This document shows, one piece after another, positions 22,808 to 44,291 of a DNA stretch of 56,718 bases (the stretch's first letter is position 1; the number at the start of each line of letters is the position of its first letter). Source of the stretch: Candidatus Methanoperedens nitratireducens (GTDB lineage Archaea > Halobacteriota > Methanosarcinia > Methanosarcinales > Methanoperedenaceae). The stretch spans positions 1 to 56,718 of the forward strand of contig NZ_FZMP01000084.1 in assembly GCF_900196725.1 (NCBI RefSeq). Direction: 5' to 3'. The notes below the pieces were generated by a model that was not told the DNA's origin, did no database searches, and saw only the letters and a program-made list of their open reading frames with translations. Position numbers and translations under genes: made by a program.

Positions 22808-23413
22808 TTAAGCGGTAGCAGTCTTTGGCACTTCGATCCCTGGAAACAGCCTTCTGGTTCTCATAAATTCCCTTGCTTCCTTAAGTTTTATCGCGTATTC
22901 GAACATCCATCCCTCATTAATGAATATAGTTCCGTCCCTTATTGTTTCTTTGCTGAGGGTTCCCATACCGGACTCCATAAGCAACTGGATCGTGGCAATG
23001 CACGCTGCACTGTATTCATCGATATCCTTATTTTCAGTCGCAACGTCGTGGAGCAGCATTTTGAACAGGCTTCTGAATTTGTTCGAAGGCAAGAATTGTC
23101 TTTCACCTGTTTTTACAAGAACATTAATCTCAATAAGGTCGCCAGCCAGCTTATCGATCATATCTTCTCCCCAGTTCTCTGTGGGATAATCCGTATATTC
23201 ATACACATCCCACACGTTTTGCAGGTTCTCCTCTATCTCTTTCTTGTTCTCAATCCTCCTCAGAGCATATTCCGAGGACTTTAACTCAGGCAGGGTATGG
23301 ATATAAAACCTCAAAAGGTTTTTCAGCTTCTCTCCATCATCTCCCTCGACTATAGTCAGCTTTTTAAGTATACCATATTCAATCTCGCTGAGATCTGCGC
23401 AAACTTTTGGCAT
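22808..23413 (-). CDS. Helical protein with ribbon-helix-helix-like start (paralogue A)
   Basis: About 201 residues. The first 40 ('LSEIEYGILKKLTIVEGDDGEKLKNLLRFYI') look like a ribbon-helix-helix DNA-binding unit; the rest is acidic and helical with 'DEYSAACIATIQLLMESG' and 'ETIRDGTIFINEGWMFEYA'. It is a clear paralogue of the protein at 43227-43835 (about half the residues identical by eye). ATG 23413 aligns with that start; ATG 23425 is possible. The 3' end abuts the PAS gene. Function unknown. Confidence 0.7.
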   Translation of the reverse strand: MPKVCADLSEIEYGILKKLTIVEGDDGEKLKNLLRFYIHTLPELKSSEYALRRIENKKEIEENLQNVWDVYEYTDYPTENWGEDMIDKLAGDLIEINVLVKTGERQFLPSNKFRSLFKMLLHDVATENKDIDEYSAACIATIQLLMESGMGTLSKETIRDGTIFINEGWMFEYAIKLKEAREFMRTRRLFPGIEVPKTATA

Positions 23414-23476
23414 TTTACCATTCATCTAAAGACTTCTTACGATTAATAGATTGTTCATTCAAGATCAGACAGATAG

Positions 23477-23994: not shown

Positions 23995-24504
23995 ATGGTA
24001 AAGGTAAAAAATCTTGCGTACACAGTATTGGTTATATTTCTTGTGTCAGTCCTTTTGGGCTGTGTTGGTACAAGAGAAACTAAATTAGAGCCCAAAGCCG
24101 AGGGTAAACCTCTTTACGACTACATAACGAAAGGAAATAACTACAAGAGCTGGAATAAGTGGCCAGGTACGGGTGAATTATATTCCAGAAGCCCTGGAAG
24201 CCCGCACGGTGATTTCCTCACGACATACGTATCGGACAATGCCTTCTCTGCGATCCAGAGTAAAAAAGGAAGCCTGCCTGATGAAAGCATAATAGTAAAA
24301 GAGAACTACGATGCTAACAAGACGCTTGCGGCGCTTACAGTTATGTACAAGGAAGATGGCTACGATCCGGGAAATAACGACTGGTTCTGGGCAAAGTACG
24401 GTACAGATGGCTCGGTACAGGTTGAAGGTAAAGTGAATGGATGTATTGACTGCCATGTCAAGCAAAAAGAAAATGACTACACATTTTCAGGTCCTCTAAA
24501 GTAG
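23995..24504 (+). CDS. Cytochrome P460-like haem-c lipoprotein (copy 1)
   Basis: A 169-residue exported protein. A signal peptide with lipobox 'SVLLGC' (Cys 23) predicts a lipid anchor. The P460-type fold follows: 'YDYITKGNNYKSWNKWPG', 'SPHGDFLTTYVSDNAF', 'LTVMYKEDGYDPGNNDWFWAKYG', and one haem-binding CIDCH at residues 150-154. P460 cytochromes oxidise small N compounds or bind NO; the substrate here is unknown. A near copy is at 39838, with a matching leader (TATA, TGGAGG). It lies upstream of an ArsR-controlled operon. Confidence 0.88.
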   Translation: MVKVKNLAYTVLVIFLVSVLLGCVGTRETKLEPKAEGKPLYDYITKGNNYKSWNKWPGTGELYSRSPGSPHGDFLTTYVSDNAFSAIQSKKGSLPDESIIVKENYDANKTLAALTVMYKEDGYDPGNNDWFWAKYGTDGSVQVEGKVNGCIDCHVKQKENDYTFSGPLK

Positions 24505-34403: not shown

Positions 34404-35828
34404 ATGAAAGAGTACGATGTTATTATAATAGGTACAGGTTCAGCAATGGGCTTTGTTAGTCCGATAGCGGATAAGAACCCGGAAACGAAGATCGCGATTA
34501 TTGATAAAGACGAGCCGGGAGGGATATGCCTGACAAGAGCCTGTATACCCTCTAAACTACTTATCTACCCGGCAGATCTTGTGAGGCTGGTGGAGAGCAT
34601 AGGGAAATTTGGTATTGATATTGAATTAAAAAGAGTTGATTTCAAAAAGATAATGGAGAGGATGAGGGGCATAATCTCTGCGCATATAAATAATATTCGT
34701 GAGGGACTATCCAGCAGCCCGAACATAGATTATTACCGTGAAGTTGCGGAATTTATTGCCCCTTATACGATGAAGGTAGGTAATGAGACCATAACCTCAA
34801 AAATGATATTCCTCGGTACCGGTTCAAAGCCAATGATACCGCCGGTAAAAGGGCTGAATGATGTGGATTACCAAACAAGCGATACGTTATTAAAAATGAC
34901 CGAACTTCCGGAGAGCATGGCGATTATGGGTGGTGGGTTCATTTCGGCAGAATATGCCCATTTCTTCTCAGCCATGGGCACAAAGGTAACTATCATTGGC
35001 AGAAATCCCCGGTTATTGCCTGATGAGGAACCAGAGGTCTCAGAGCTGGCTAAGAAAGAGATGTCAAAGCACATGGATATTATCACAAACCACGAGGTTG
35101 TTGAAGTGCAAAGCGCCGGCGGTGGAAAGAAAAAGGTTATTGCAATGGATAGGATTAATGGTAAAAAGACCGATATCGTCGTAGAGGAGATCCTTGTTGC
35201 TACAGGCAGGGCTTCCAATACCGATATACTGCATCCTGAGAAGAGCGGAATAAAAACCGATAAGAAAGGCTGGATTGTTGTAAATGAATATTTTGAAACT
35301 TCACAGCCAGATATCTGGGCTTTTGGAGATGCTCATGGAAAATTCCTTTTCAAACACGTGGCAAACTATGAAGCCCGGATTGTTTACTACAATGCATTCC
35401 AGAATAAAAAGATCAGATCTGATTACCATGCTATCCCGCATGCGGTCTTTTCACACCCTGAGATAGCCGGTGTGGGATTGAGGGAAAAGGAAGCCATTGA
35501 GAAATATGGGGAAAAGAACGTGTTGATAGGCTTCTATAGATATCAGGATACTGCCAAAGGTCAGGCAATAGGAGCGAAGGATGGTTTTGTAAAGGTAATC
35601 GTAGAAAATGGTACCAATAGGATTCTGGGTGCGCACATAATCGGTCCCAGCGCCTCGGTTCTCATCCAGGAGGTAATAAATCTCATGTACACGCCTGAGC
35701 AGAGCGCAACTCCTATCAGTCGGGGGATGCATATTCATCCTGCACTGAGTGAGGTTGTAGAGAAGGCGTTCGGTTCACTAATGGAGCCTGCACACTATCA
35801 TCATGTTCTGGAGGAGCACCTGCATTAG
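34404..35828 (+). CDS. Pyridine nucleotide-disulfide oxidoreductase (dihydrolipoyl dehydrogenase/mercuric reductase family)
   Basis: A 474-residue FAD enzyme. Redox-active Cys 42 and 47 ('GGICLTRACIPSK'), NAD-binding 'MAIMGGGFISAEYA', second FAD motif 'DIWAFGDA' and the carboxyl His-Glu pair 'HIHPALSEVVEKAF' are all present, so it should be active. The first FAD loop is unusual (GTGSAMGF rather than GxGxGG). It lacks the CC tail of MerA. It may serve lipoyl proteins (lipoate ligases at 5.2-6.3 kb) or another disulfide such as CoM/CoB derivatives. The His-rich end (HYHHVLEEHLH) could bind metal. Confidence 0.85.
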   Translation: MKEYDVIIIGTGSAMGFVSPIADKNPETKIAIIDKDEPGGICLTRACIPSKLLIYPADLVRLVESIGKFGIDIELKRVDFKKIMERMRGIISAHINNIREGLSSSPNIDYYREVAEFIAPYTMKVGNETITSKMIFLGTGSKPMIPPVKGLNDVDYQTSDTLLKMTELPESMAIMGGGFISAEYAHFFSAMGTKVTIIGRNPRLLPDEEPEVSELAKKEMSKHMDIITNHEVVEVQSAGGGKKKVIAMDRINGKKTDIVVEEILVATGRASNTDILHPEKSGIKTDKKGWIVVNEYFETSQPDIWAFGDAHGKFLFKHVANYEARIVYYNAFQNKKIRSDYHAIPHAVFSHPEIAGVGLREKEAIEKYGEKNVLIGFYRYQDTAKGQAIGAKDGFVKVIVENGTNRILGAHIIGPSASVLIQEVINLMYTPEQSATPISRGMHIHPALSEVVEKAFGSLMEPAHYHHVLEEHLH

Positions 35829-39837: not shown

Positions 39838-40347
39838 ATGGTAAAAATAAAAAATGTTGTATATACAATATTGGCTATATTCCTTGTATCGGTTCTTTTA
39901 GGCTGTGTTGGTCAAAGAGAGGCAGGATTAGAACCCAGGGCAGAAGGTAAGGCACTCTACGACTACATAACCGCAGGCAATAACTATAAAAATTGGAACA
40001 AGTGGCCCGGTCTGGGCGAGTTTTATCCAAGAAGCCCGGGAAGCGCTCACAGTGATTTACTTACGACCTATGTATCAGGTAATGCTTTTTCCGCAATCCA
40101 GGGCAAAAAAGGGACACTTCCTGAAGAGAGCATAGTAGTAAAAGAGAACTACGATTCTAACAGGACGCTCATGGCACTTACAGTTATGTACAAGGAAAAA
40201 GGCTATGATCCGCTGAACAATGACTGGTTCTGGGCAAAGTACGGTCCCGACGGTACGGTGCAGGCAGAAGGAAGGGTAGAAGACTGTATCAACTGCCATG
40301 GGCAGAGAAAAGATAACGATTACATATTCTCAAGCCCTCTTAAGTAA
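39838..40347 (+). CDS. Cytochrome P460-like haem-c lipoprotein (copy 2)
   Basis: 169 residues, the same length as copy 1 at 23995 and about 75-80% identical by eye. Signal peptide and lipobox 'SVLLGC', P460 blocks 'NNDWFWAKYGPDG', and a single haem site CINCH at 150-154 (CIDCH in copy 1). The leader is also alike: TATATATA about 45 bases upstream and GTGGAGG before the ATG. It should be exported and haem-loaded. merA follows 95 bases later. Confidence 0.88.
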   Translation: MVKIKNVVYTILAIFLVSVLLGCVGQREAGLEPRAEGKALYDYITAGNNYKNWNKWPGLGEFYPRSPGSAHSDLLTTYVSGNAFSAIQGKKGTLPEESIVVKENYDSNRTLMALTVMYKEKGYDPLNNDWFWAKYGPDGTVQAEGRVEDCINCHGQRKDNDYIFSSPLK

Positions 40348-40441: not shown

Positions 40442-41839
40442 ATGAGTATGGATAAATATGATCTAATAATCCTCGGCAGCGGCTCTGCTGCTTTCGGGGC
40501 AGCGATAAAAGCAGTGGAATTGGGAGCAAAGGTGGCTATGATCGAGAAAGGTACGATCGGAGGCACCTGCGTTAATGTCGGTTGCGTGCCAAGCAAGCAC
40601 CTGCTAAGGGTCGGGGAAATCAGCTATTATAAAAATCATGGTTACACCGGATTGGACATTACCTCTTCCCTTGACTTTGCTGGCACAATAAACGATAAAA
40701 GAGAAATTGTAGAAGGGTTGAGGAAGGGCAGGTACATCGATGTGATCGATGCTTTAGGGATAACTCTGGTAAGAGGGCAGGCTGTTTTTGATTCCAAAAA
40801 CGAAGTAAAGGTGAACGGCAGGACTCTACATGCCGATAAGTTCGTTATAGCCACTGGTTCTTCCTCACATATCCTTCCAATAGAAGGTATAGACAGTGTA
40901 GATTACCTGACCAACATAGAGGCCATGGAGTTATCCGAACTCCCCGAATCGATGATAGTTCTGGGTGGAAGAGCTCTTGGTCTGGAATTTGCGCAGATGT
41001 TCGCTCATTTTGGAACAAAAGTAACCGTACTCCAGAGAAGTCCCGGGATAATACCTGAAGAGGAAAGCATGATCTCAGATTATCTCAAAGCCTATCTTGA
41101 AGAAGAAGGAATTAATATCCAGACCGGGGCAGGCGTGAGAAGTGTCAGGAAAGAGAACGGTAATGTCGTTGTAACCGCACTTTTTGGAGAAGAAAAAAGA
41201 GAATTTAAGGCTGAAAAACTATTGATGGCGACAGGCAGGAAACCCAATACAAGGGATCTGCACCTGGAAAAAGCAGGTGTTAAGACCGATGAAAATGGTG
41301 CAGTAGTCATAGATGGGGAATTTAGAACCACATCACCTGATATCTGGGCAGCAGGCGATGTTCTTGGGGAACCGATGCTTGAGACTGTTGCAGGTAAAGA
41401 AGGCTCAATCGCAGCCGATAACGCCTTAACTGGCAGAGGGAAAAAGATGGATTTCTCAGCAGTGCCCCATGCAATATTCACCATACCGCAGGTAGCCAGC
41501 GTAGGCTTGACTGAGAAGAAAGCAGAAGAAAAAGGCATTATCTGCAGATGCAGCACCATTCCGATGGAGGCTGTTCCAAAAGCTGTGCTGGCAAAGGATA
41601 CGCGCGGGCTTGTTAAAATGGTGATTGATGCGGAAACTGAACGCATACTCGGCGTGCATATACTGGCTTCACTGGCTGCTGATATGATCCATGAAGGGGT
41701 TCTTGCTGTAAAATTTGGTATGACTATTGATGATATTATAGACACAGTGCATGTTTTCCCCACAATGACAGAAGCGGTTAAGCTGGCGGCGCAGTCATTC
41801 AGGAGAGATATCAGCAGGATGAGCTGCTGCGCTGAATAA
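40442..41839 (+). CDS. merA: Mercuric reductase
   Basis: A 465-residue FAD/NAD(P)H disulfide oxidoreductase: 'LGSGSAAFGAAIKA' FAD loop, redox Cys 43 and 48 ('GTCVNVGCVPSK'), 'IVLGGRALGLEFAQMFA', 'DIWAAGDV', and the diagnostic MerA tail with vicinal Cys 462-463 ('MSCCAE') that hands Hg(II) to the active site. There is no N-terminal NmerA domain. It reduces Hg(II) to volatile Hg(0). No merR is adjacent. A fragment of a second copy lies behind the merB-like gene at 28.3 kb. Confidence 0.92.
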   Translation: MSMDKYDLIILGSGSAAFGAAIKAVELGAKVAMIEKGTIGGTCVNVGCVPSKHLLRVGEISYYKNHGYTGLDITSSLDFAGTINDKREIVEGLRKGRYIDVIDALGITLVRGQAVFDSKNEVKVNGRTLHADKFVIATGSSSHILPIEGIDSVDYLTNIEAMELSELPESMIVLGGRALGLEFAQMFAHFGTKVTVLQRSPGIIPEEESMISDYLKAYLEEEGINIQTGAGVRSVRKENGNVVVTALFGEEKREFKAEKLLMATGRKPNTRDLHLEKAGVKTDENGAVVIDGEFRTTSPDIWAAGDVLGEPMLETVAGKEGSIAADNALTGRGKKMDFSAVPHAIFTIPQVASVGLTEKKAEEKGIICRCSTIPMEAVPKAVLAKDTRGLVKMVIDAETERILGVHILASLAADMIHEGVLAVKFGMTIDDIIDTVHVFPTMTEAVKLAAQSFRRDISRMSCCAE

Positions 41840-41896: not shown

Positions 41897-42055
41897 GTGA
41901 CAAAAAAAGATCCATACATAGCCCTTATCTGCACACATTGCGAGTTCTTCAAGGAAGACGATATAGACCTTGAATGCGCTGCGTTCAAGGTCTTAAAAAG
42001 CATGCTCCAGAGAGGCGTTATTACGCCGGAAGAGATAAAAGATGTCCTCGGTTGA
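41897..42055 (+). CDS. Small Cys-containing protein paired with a radical SAM enzyme
   Basis: 52 residues, GTG start. 'ICTHCEFFKEDDIDLECAAF' has Cys 12, 15 and 27; the rest 'LKSMLQRGVITPEEIKDVLG' is a helix. It overlaps the radical SAM gene by 14 bases, so the two are translated together. It may be the peptide substrate of that enzyme or a small Fe-S/zinc helper. The conserved look of the carboxyl helix speaks against a throw-away leader. No other paralogue is in the window. Confidence 0.65.
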   Translation: MTKKDPYIALICTHCEFFKEDDIDLECAAFKVLKSMLQRGVITPEEIKDVLG

Positions 42056-43232
42056 GTTCTTTCCTGCACTGTCACCCGATTTTGTGCTCCGTAAGCTTGA
42101 GAAACCGTATGTCTATAATATATCCGATGACCAGTTATATGAGCTGGACGATGAAGCGTTTGAGTTCTTAAAGAAATGCAACGGAACAACTCCTTCTTCC
42201 AGCCTGGTTCCGGACACTGGCGAAGACAGCCGGGAATCAATCGAATACATGCTGGACGAAGGTATAATCCGGCGGCAGGAAAAAGCAGCTTCGAGAAAAA
42301 TCAAAGCGCTGCATTCACCTGTTCCATCGCTTCGCTATCTTTTGGTGAATATAACGAACAAATGTAATCTTAAATGCAAACACTGCTATCTTGGAGAATC
42401 AGGAGATAAAGAGGTCGGAATAAGGTCATTCGAAAAAGCAGTTTCGCAATTCGAGGATATGGGCGGTTTAAAGCTTATGATCTCGGGAGGCGAACCTCTT
42501 CTTCATTCAAAATTCCGGGAACTGCTGGATATCCTGCCTTCCTACGAGCTTCGGATGGTGGTTTTGTCTAACGGGACACTGATACATAAAAAAGAAGCGG
42601 AAAAACTATCAAAGTACGTCGATGAAGTCCAGGTCAGTATCGATGGCATTAAGTCGCATGACCTTTTACGCGGGAAAGGTTCATACGATAAGGCTATACG
42701 AGGGATCTCTGCCCTCCGGGGTTCGGGTGTTCCGGTCTCTGTTGCCACAATGGTGCACAGATATAACGCCGGTGAGTTCGGGGCTATGAAAAAGCTTTTC
42801 TCCGGGCTGGGAGTACTTTCGTGGAGCGTGGATGTGCCGTGCACCGCCGGGAACATGAGATCCAGCAAGGACTATATGCTTTCCCTGGAAGAGGCAGCCC
42901 CGCTCTTAAATTATGGCTTCGGCGCCGGGGCGCATGAAAGCACCGGCGATTATACGTGCGGTTCTCACCTGTGCGCGGTATCACCCGATGGCGCAGTAAG
43001 TAAGTGCGGGTTTTTTGATGATGAGCCGGTTGGGGATGTAATTGACCTTGAGGCAGCCTGGGCAAAACTCTGTAAAAATTATCTCTGGAAGCTTGATGAA
43101 CTGGACTGCCACAATTGCAAAGTTATCAAAGACTGCAGGGGAGGGTGCCGCTTCAGGGCGAAGCAGTATAAAGGGATACTGGCTCCCGACCCCCTGTTAT
43201 GCCATGCCAATGGTGTTCTGGCATTCCTATGA
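42042..43232 (+). CDS. Radical SAM/SPASM enzyme with PqqD-like N-terminal domain
   Basis: 396 residues. Residues about 5-75 ('FPALSPDFVLRKLEKPYVYNISD' region) look like a PqqD/RRE-type peptide-binding domain. The radical SAM core has CNLKCKHC (CxxxCxxC, near 108-115), 'ISGGEPLL' and 'VQVSIDG'. A SPASM tail carries many Cys ('CGSHLCAVSPDGAVSKCGFF', 'CHNCKVIKDCRGGCRFRA'), enough for auxiliary [4Fe-4S] clusters. Such enzymes modify peptides or mature cofactors. The overlapping 52-residue gene upstream is the natural candidate substrate. Confidence 0.85.
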   Translation: MSSVEFFPALSPDFVLRKLEKPYVYNISDDQLYELDDEAFEFLKKCNGTTPSSSLVPDTGEDSRESIEYMLDEGIIRRQEKAASRKIKALHSPVPSLRYLLVNITNKCNLKCKHCYLGESGDKEVGIRSFEKAVSQFEDMGGLKLMISGGEPLLHSKFRELLDILPSYELRMVVLSNGTLIHKKEAEKLSKYVDEVQVSIDGIKSHDLLRGKGSYDKAIRGISALRGSGVPVSVATMVHRYNAGEFGAMKKLFSGLGVLSWSVDVPCTAGNMRSSKDYMLSLEEAAPLLNYGFGAGAHESTGDYTCGSHLCAVSPDGAVSKCGFFDDEPVGDVIDLEAAWAKLCKNYLWKLDELDCHNCKVIKDCRGGCRFRAKQYKGILAPDPLLCHANGVLAFL

Positions 43233-43835
43233 GATCTCAGCGGCTGCTTCTTCAGGTTCCGGGAACAACTTTTTTGTTCTCATGAATTCCCTGGCTTTCT
43301 TCATCGCTGTGGCATAAGCGAACAGCCATCCCTCGTTAAGCAAAATAGTCCCGTCCCTTATCGTCTCTTTTTCGAGCGTACCGCCGCTGAACTCCTTCAG
43401 CAACTGGATAGTTGCGATGCATGCTGCACTGTACTCATCCATCTCCTTTGATTCGGTCGCAATATCATGAAGCAGCATTTTGTAAAGGTTCCTGAACTTG
43501 GAGGTGGGAATGAACTGTTTCTCTCCTGTTTTTACAAGAACGTTGATTTCAACAAGATCGCTCGTCAGTTTATCGATTTTATCTTCTTTCCAGGTTTCAG
43601 TCGGATTATCCGTAAGCTCATATGCTGCCCAGACGTCCCTCAGGAGGCTATCGATCTCCTCCTTATTTTCTACCCTTTTCAAAGCATACTCAGATGATTT
43701 TAATCCGGGGATAGTGGATATATAGAGCCTCAGAAGATTCCTTAACTTATCACCATCCTCGCCCTCAACGACTTTTATCTGTTTAAGGATCTCATATTCC
43801 ATGTCACTGAGGGTCACAGTCAGATTTTTTGGCAT
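43227..43835 (-). CDS. Helical protein with ribbon-helix-helix-like start (paralogue B)
   Basis: 202 residues, a paralogue of the protein at 22808. The start 'MPKNLTVTLSDMEYEILKQI' fits a ribbon-helix-helix strand and helix, so DNA binding is plausible; 'DEYSAACIATIQLLKEF' and 'KETIRDGTILLNEGWLFAYA' are shared with paralogue A. It overlaps the convergent radical SAM gene end by six bases. Function unknown. Confidence 0.7.
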   Translation of the reverse strand: MPKNLTVTLSDMEYEILKQIKVVEGEDGDKLRNLLRLYISTIPGLKSSEYALKRVENKEEIDSLLRDVWAAYELTDNPTETWKEDKIDKLTSDLVEINVLVKTGEKQFIPTSKFRNLYKMLLHDIATESKEMDEYSAACIATIQLLKEFSGGTLEKETIRDGTILLNEGWLFAYATAMKKAREFMRTKKLFPEPEEAAAEIS

Positions 43836-43914: not shown

Positions 43915-44291
43915 TCATTCTATCAGCTCCGCAACGAAAGTGCATTCTTCAACTCCTTCCAGGACGCATTCCGCACCTTTTTTACAATAGAACCTGTTAT
44001 CAATATGTTTTCTGGCAATCCCTCCGAAAAACCCTCTTAATATATCACAGTACGTGCATTTTTTCCCTTTTAACGGCAGCCCTTTTACCTTGAACAGGAT
44101 TTTTTTTCAGATATCTCGAAAGTTACTTTTACCCCGTCTTTCTCGAATTCCTGCTGGATATCCTCAATTTTTGATGTTTTAATATCCATTGCAGCCTGCT
44201 CTCCGGCTTCGAACATCAGAACAGCGTTCGCTGCATTCGTTACGACATTATTACAGACATCGACATAAGCTTCCAAAAATCTTCTGAACAA
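43915..44291 (-). pseudogene. Cys-rich archaeal protein gene broken by a frameshift
   Basis: The first 64 residues ('FLEAYVDVCNNVVTNAANAV', 'DGVKVTFEISEKK') end in a false 'SCSR' stop at an A8 run (T8 on the plus strand, 44100-44107). With one more A the frame continues 'ILFKVKGLPLKGKKCTYCDI', 'FYCKKGAECVLEGVEECTF' to TGA 43915, giving about 125 residues with six further Cys. The last part resembles the Cys-rich end of V4R-type domains, but I am not sure. Start TTG at 44291. Confidence 0.65.

Follow-up and report, generated by a model that had tools for sequence, protein, structure and literature searches.

Several described systems combine a small protein or polypeptide with a radical SAM enzyme, and they differ in what becomes of the small partner. 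SCIFF peptides carry six Cys in 45 residues, and their N-terminal leader is bound by the RRE (PMC8326336). CteA/CteB, a SCIFF precursor with its ranthisynthase, comprises a small conserved Cys protein, with no obvious antimicrobial role, and an RRE-radical SAM-SPASM enzyme; in CteB, the bound peptide supplies a Cys that occupies an open cluster site (PMC6231123, PMC8326336). For AlbA, the count of seven SPASM Cys had likewise led to the suggestion that a cluster site is open (PMC6231123). The sactisynthase SkfB and the Lys-Trp cyclase SuiB are built from an RRE, a radical SAM core and a C-terminal twitch/SPASM domain, and act on leader-core peptide precursors. In the system formed by QhpC, the gamma subunit of quinohemoprotein amine dehydrogenase, and its crosslinking enzyme QhpD, a small Cys polypeptide is tied to a radical SAM enzyme and its product stays as a subunit; QhpC has a 28-residue leader and is accompanied by the QhpE protease, the QhpF exporter and dehydrogenase subunits (PMC7876137). 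Finally, PqqD/PqqE and the mycofactocin proteins MftB/MftC associate an RRE-like module with a SPASM radical enzyme, the small separate protein being a subunit and not a substrate.

The gene pair presented here was found in a 56,718-nucleotide contig (NZ_FZMP01000084.1) of Candidatus Methanoperedens nitratireducens, the whole of which is referred to as the window. As for CteA/CteB, a small conserved Cys protein is encoded with an RRE-radical SAM-SPASM enzyme, no antimicrobial role is obvious, and CteB ranks with the best structural matches of the enzyme. Unlike SCIFF, the small protein has only three Cys in 52 residues, no leader and, beyond the Cys motif, a predicted helical tail; fusions with the enzyme exist in relatives. 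SkfB and SuiB are the best full-length matches (E about 1e-15), but they share only 15-18% identity with the enzyme and differ from it in acting on leader-core precursors. The tie between a small Cys polypeptide and a radical SAM enzyme recalls QhpC/QhpD, although counterparts of the QhpC leader, QhpE, QhpF and the dehydrogenase are not conserved. In contrast with PqqD/PqqE and MftB/MftC, the RRE-like domain already lies inside the enzyme, whose additional partner is a Cys module rather than an RRE. No paper on this gene pair was found in the literature searched, in which the pair, common to anaerobic methanotrophs, Archaeoglobi and Desulfobacterota, is undescribed.

The gene pair and its surroundings

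All features of the pair lie on the forward strand. The small open reading frame (41897..42055) consists of 52 codons and starts with a GTG, the sole in-frame start codon ahead of the Cys motif; its product, as read from the window, is VTKKDPYIALICTHCEFFKEDDIDLECAAFKVLKSMLQRGVITPEEIKDVLG, with Cys at positions 12, 15 and 27. The CxxC formed by Cys12 and Cys15 (41930..41941) is invariant in 56 aligned homologs, as is Glu26-Cys27 (41972..41977) in the 56 aligned single-module homologs. The second gene (42042..43232) has an ATG start and encodes a 396-residue enzyme with RRE-like, radical SAM and SPASM parts. Both frames have 14 bases in common (42042..42055), read in different frames, and the same 14 nt are shared in most Methanoperedens loci. 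A preliminary sequence-only reading of this DNA had reported a 52-residue protein with these three Cys, overlapping the enzyme gene by 14 bases; its coordinates, lengths and overlap were all exact.

Directly 5' of the pair, the product of a forward-strand gene (40442-41839) scores above the curated cut-off for MerA mercury(II) reductase (587 bits vs 454), and a second pyridine nucleotide-disulfide oxidoreductase is encoded at 34404-35828. A functional link between MerA and the pair was considered and rejected: the direct upstream position is found only in the window and its sister, and was judged a coincidence. Near other pairs, more distant members of MerA's large superfamily are found.

On the reverse strand, 43227-43835 and 22808-23425 encode two similar proteins of about 202-205 residues, of which the 43227 copy was scanned and gave no Pfam or NCBIfam family above cut-off. 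The window also encodes two cytochrome P460-like proteins that closely resemble each other (23995-24504 and 39838-40347), one in the vicinity of each of these genes, which suggests that a segment was duplicated. In 11 loci, the enzyme keeps as neighbours the 43227 gene and the next one (44085-44291; homologs of about 125 residues).

The assembly also contains a second copy of the pair, on another contig (C76:1-1006), nearly identical to the copy of genome G017. It was rejected as a paralog: given this near identity to the copy of another species and an assembly contamination of 5.18%, the contig is probably a mis-binned one from another Methanoperedens.

The enzyme

The N-terminal domain (residues ~7-79, 42060..42278) is conserved, with L10, L16, Y25, D30 and L32, among other positions, near-invariant, yet the Pfam PqqD model does not recognize it (one match among 35 homologs, at E=0.14). 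For structure prediction with AF2, the two proteins were joined into one chain by way of a +1 frameshift word placed in the overlap, which carries no claim about an interface; the positions of the secondary-structure elements given here are those of this fusion minus 48. The resulting single-chain model (pLDDT 89, pTM 0.85) displays, ahead of the barrel, the strand and helix order of an RRE, with four short strands, helices at residues 37-45 and 61-72, and a strand at 76-79. The top Foldseek matches are SkfB, SuiB bound to SuiA, and CteB (E about 1e-15 over 410-457 columns). By predicted fold, and not by sequence, the N-terminal domain would thus be an RRE/PqqD-like winged helix.

The radical SAM core (residues 102-250, 42345..42791; Pfam Radical_SAM, E=1e-22) contains the motif CNLKCKHC (42363..42386), whose CX3CX2C provides the invariant SAM-cluster ligands C108, C112 and C115. 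It is followed by the SPASM domain (42957..43202), with C306-X10-G317-X4-C322, C356-X2-C359-X5-C365-X3-C369 and C387, in agreement with the seven-Cys definition CX9-15GX4C-gap-CX2CX5CX3C-gap-C (PMC6231123). Exactly seven Cys of this domain are invariant family-wide in a diverse alignment, and in many homologs the CX2C of the SPASM motif is shortened to CXC. The RRE-order fold and the matches to SkfB, SuiB and CteB place the enzyme, by its modelled architecture, with the RRE-radical SAM-SPASM peptide maturases. From the letters alone, an N-terminal peptide-binding-like domain, auxiliary-cluster Cys and a likeness to peptide-crosslinking enzymes had been proposed; the first holds as an RRE-like predicted fold, the second as the complete signature, and the third in that the closest solved structures are radical SAM enzymes of this kind.

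Family assignment goes no further than the core, for which only Radical_SAM and Fer4_12 are above cut-off in Pfam and NCBIfam. No NCBIfam family reaches its cut-off with the enzyme, the best score being that of ScmE (109.5 bits vs 400), and MftC giving 92.5 vs 265; the PqqE, NirJ/AhbC/AhbD and WgkB equivalogs also stay below theirs, and neither a SCIFF precursor nor a SCIFF maturase model is among the NCBIfam matches listed. A viperin-type defence role (pVip) was rejected, as the PADLOC match (E=7e-21) spans the radical SAM core only (residues 103-245).

The small protein

Modelled alone with AF2 from 56 sequences, at moderate confidence (pLDDT 83), the small protein is a predicted small helical domain, as the sequence-only reading had supposed, with helices at residues 6-11, 28-38 and 44-51. 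Its Cys fall in the loop that connects the first helix to the second. The PDB holds nothing like it by sequence or by fold (Foldseek on the AF2 model). No Pfam or NCBIfam family is above cut-off either, the matches to SHOCT, MarR and L33 being sub-threshold. Several mixed alignments were dropped, in which MAFFT had matched the small protein to the radical SAM CxxC.

The N-terminus is the least conserved region of the protein. The first Cys occupies position 7 in one homolog (L098), where a stop codon lies 9 residues ahead of it, and position 8 in another (L064). With as few as 6-9 residues before the first Cys, a classical N-terminal leader is absent, and the leader-core layout of a precursor, with the leader at the N-terminus, is not found in the small protein.

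Conservation and co-occurrence

The first survey covered 60 genomes, comprising the organism's own genome and relatives, and the enzyme was found in 28 of them. The small gene directly precedes the enzyme gene, in the same order, in all 27 Methanoperedens-type loci for which upstream DNA is available. The same adjacency is found in all 19 Archaeoglobi-type and other loci, and in 12 out of 12 single-module loci from Desulfobacterota. Homologs of the small open reading frame in 27 other loci share 38-92% identity, with C12, C15, F17, E26 and C27 invariant. The mean pN/pS of the small gene is 0.17 (37 core codons, 23 genomes), a sign of purifying selection, and its variability is highest at third codon positions (0.075/0.072/0.301). 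Together, the conservation and the pN/pS rule out a chance open reading frame.

At the scale of the phylum, a profile of the small protein retrieves 24 of 393 genomes (E<1e-10), and an independent enzyme profile retrieves 25, namely the same 24 and one more (G319), in which the contig ends within the enzyme gene. This co-occurrence gives a Fisher p-value of 2e-37, not corrected for phylogeny. Three extra matches of the small-protein profile (E about 0.005-0.01) come from genomes without the enzyme and are taken as noise. Outside the genus, the pair is held by one other family of the order, by Archaeoglobaceae (16 of 55 genomes) and by two further families; the Desulfobacterota holders were added by a genome-contig scan and phylum searches. 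Among named records, the relatives of the small protein belong to Ca. Methanoperedens and related uncultured archaea. The conservation of the pair in relatives had been chosen beforehand as the check on which the proposal depended, and the pair survived it; strict adjacency, in archaeal as well as Desulfobacterota loci, marks a dedicated, co-inherited gene pair. One bacterial genome (G449) yields no enzyme of the family at full-family score, and what remains there of the small gene is a truncated copy without the first Cys. By sequence comparison, this appears as a case of co-loss, in which the small gene decays where the enzyme is gone.

No third gene is conserved beside the pair across the family, and the neighbours that recur are clade-limited. 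In particular, neither a protease nor an exporter is conserved in about 60 neighbourhoods of the pair, or in the double-module loci described below, which extends to relatives what had been noted for the window. A mobile element was rejected as the carrier of the pair: plasmids and phages give no match, and viral contigs hold only distant radical SAM proteins.

Within a Desulfobacterota clade of single-module pairs (L154-L164), an ATP-grasp-like protein is encoded after the enzyme on the same strand in seven loci (ATP-grasp_3, E=1e-5), and IscS/IscU-type genes lie divergently upstream in three loci. At one locus of this clade (L161), the N-terminal part of the enzyme is disrupted and the small gene is intact; the same genome (G549, contig C81 for this locus) also has an intact pair (L164).

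Double-module, fused and stand-alone variants

In some Desulfobacterota (for example, L167-L169), the enzyme is preceded by a two-module protein of ~120 residues instead of the 52-residue form. Its motifs are CX2-3CX[FY]...C and CX2CX6CX13CGG, with three and four Cys, respectively. A double-module profile retrieves 28 of 237 genomes, four of which are single-module pairs already known. The double module occurs in three arrangements. A separate double-module gene precedes the enzyme in 13 loci. In six genomes, module and enzyme form one uninterrupted open reading frame of about 500-520 residues, in which the module is N-terminal and the module, radical SAM and SPASM Cys are all intact. One of these fusions (L238, 505 residues) lies on a 3.28-Mb contig, so that an assembly join is unlikely. 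All known fusions are of the double-module form, not of the single-module form of the window. In the enzyme tree, all enzymes that go with a double module, fused or not, are united in a single group with 97% support, distinct from the single-module archaeal enzymes; five fusions fall in one clade, and the long-branched sixth (L241) stands apart.

In the third arrangement, found in five loci, the double module is present without the enzyme alongside. Two of these stand-alone proteins (L230, L233) keep seven Cys, and the other three (L235-L237) are similar. Their pattern is CAEHCR[FL]FKPW...CxRCxxxPxxCxxR...PCG[GA], in high-GC Desulfobacterota and with no radical SAM gene alongside. For one of these genomes (G614), a search of the whole assembly gave no family enzyme at E<=1e-25, a provisional result given that no completeness values accompany the Desulfobacterota genomes.

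Other features of these loci can be noted. At L230, an RluD-like reading frame follows the stand-alone double module. In genome G548 (L244/L267), the double module runs in frame into the first RRE-like residues, then meets a stop, with no enzyme found behind, which probably reflects either a disrupted fusion gene or a fault in the assembly. A small cupin-like protein of ~115 residues is encoded after the enzyme in five loci of the double-module or fused type (weak Cupin_2 match).

Possible functions of the pair

The favoured reading, which is given an even chance of being correct, is that of a two-part radical SAM/SPASM enzyme, of which the Cys module, probably metal-binding, is an obligate subunit, and whose substrate is probably a protein. 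The module would be a domain or subunit rather than a consumed precursor: it always accompanies the enzyme, degenerates where the enzyme has disappeared, forms a single chain with it in some genomes and has related stand-alone forms. Its conserved Cys and its position fused to, or always beside, the enzyme are also those expected of a Cys/metal-binding accessory domain. The spacing of the module Cys, above all the four of the second module, and the domain-like behaviour suggest metal or Fe-S binding.

In such an enzyme, the gene overlap would probably couple the translation of the two proteins. The small helical domain would most likely use the Cys of its CxxC...EC motif to hold a metal or Fe-S centre, or to give a Cys ligand to a cluster of the enzyme, and may dock on or near the RRE-like domain. 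With the subunit in place, the enzyme would cleave SAM to yield the 5'-deoxyadenosyl radical, then modify a third partner, probably a peptide or protein, while the SPASM clusters, by analogy with the family, would take an electron or bind the substrate. The seven SPASM Cys of the enzyme may leave one cluster site open, as proposed for AlbA, and a Cys of the small protein could fill it as the peptide Cys does in CteB. This open-site precedent and the domain-like behaviour of the module are among the reasons for favouring the two-part enzyme. Nevertheless, in known enzymes the RRE domain binds the peptide substrate, and all of the closest structures are those of peptide maturases, which would suit a substrate role just as well. 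Besides, a substrate fused to its own enzyme is not impossible, and no candidate third partner is conserved nearby.

A related possibility, to which rather less than an even chance is given, is a RiPP-maturase-like system that has no free peptide, the Cys mini-domain being a radical-made protein cofactor or bringing an extra metal cluster to the active site, in trans when separate or in cis when fused. The proposal of a peptide modification system, made from the sequence alone, is retained in part: the pair, the RRE-like domain and the maturase-like fold stand, but the small protein as the modified peptide agrees less well with the missing leader, the predicted helical domain, the fusions and the stand-alone modules. 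The better match is now the alternative raised at the same time, a protein cofactor or Fe-S helper, with a putative metal-binding role.

That the small protein is itself the substrate is nonetheless the strongest competitor, though a rather unlikely one. The RRE-like domain would hold it while C12, C15 and C27 are crosslinked to carbons of neighbouring residues, for example E26/D21/D22, with ranthipeptide or QhpC-like thioethers, and the product would be a rigid intracellular mini-protein for which a protease and an exporter are unneeded. The adjacent and overlapping genes, the invariant Cys and acidic residues, the RRE-radical SAM-SPASM architecture and the top folds (SkfB, precursor-bound SuiB, CteB) are consistent with such a role, and the Cys-Thr, Cys-Asp and Cys-Glu thioethers of SCIFF and QhpC offer precedents (PMC8326336, PMC7876137). 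However, the protein has neither a leader, its first Cys being as early as residue 7-8, nor a variable core, and neither a leader protease nor an exporter is found. Moreover, the double-module form of the partner is fused to the enzyme in six genomes, and is there not a separate consumable chain, and related modules exist where the enzyme does not.

An intermediate case is a single modification of the small protein, which would afterwards be retained and serve the enzyme or a third protein as a protein-derived cofactor or carrier; the fusions would modify themselves in cis. It covers the fusions, the strict pairing, the missing protease and exporter and the RRE-like fold together, and QhpC does turn into a subunit after crosslinking (PMC7876137); but the stand-alone double modules would then have to be unmodified or the target of another enzyme, and this case is considered improbable. 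In the least probable reading, the product of the enzyme would be a small molecule or a tetrapyrrole, the N-terminal domain would be otherwise used, and the small protein would donate electrons or act as a regulator. This reading draws on a core that scores highest against ScmE, NirJ2 and AhbD-type families, on NCBIfam core matches to NirJ2, AhbD, NirJ and AhbC in 26 of 26 homologs, and on a weak association with multiheme-cytochrome domains in Archaeoglobaceae (12/17 vs 8/38), but all the NCBIfam scores are far under the curated cut-offs and concern the core only, the N-terminal domain is conserved, and the multiheme association (p=7e-4 by genome) is gone when counted by genus (p=0.59), which makes it a lead only.

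Significance

The enzyme resembles those that make crosslinked peptides, and its constant partner behaves as an enzyme domain. If this holds true, finding a short Cys protein encoded with an RRE-radical SAM enzyme would not justify calling the two precursor and maturase, as is commonly assumed in genome mining. The fused forms unite partner and enzyme in a single chain and so allow the two to be studied jointly. An uncharacterized enzyme system would also be added to Ca. Methanoperedens, Archaeoglobi and Desulfobacterota.
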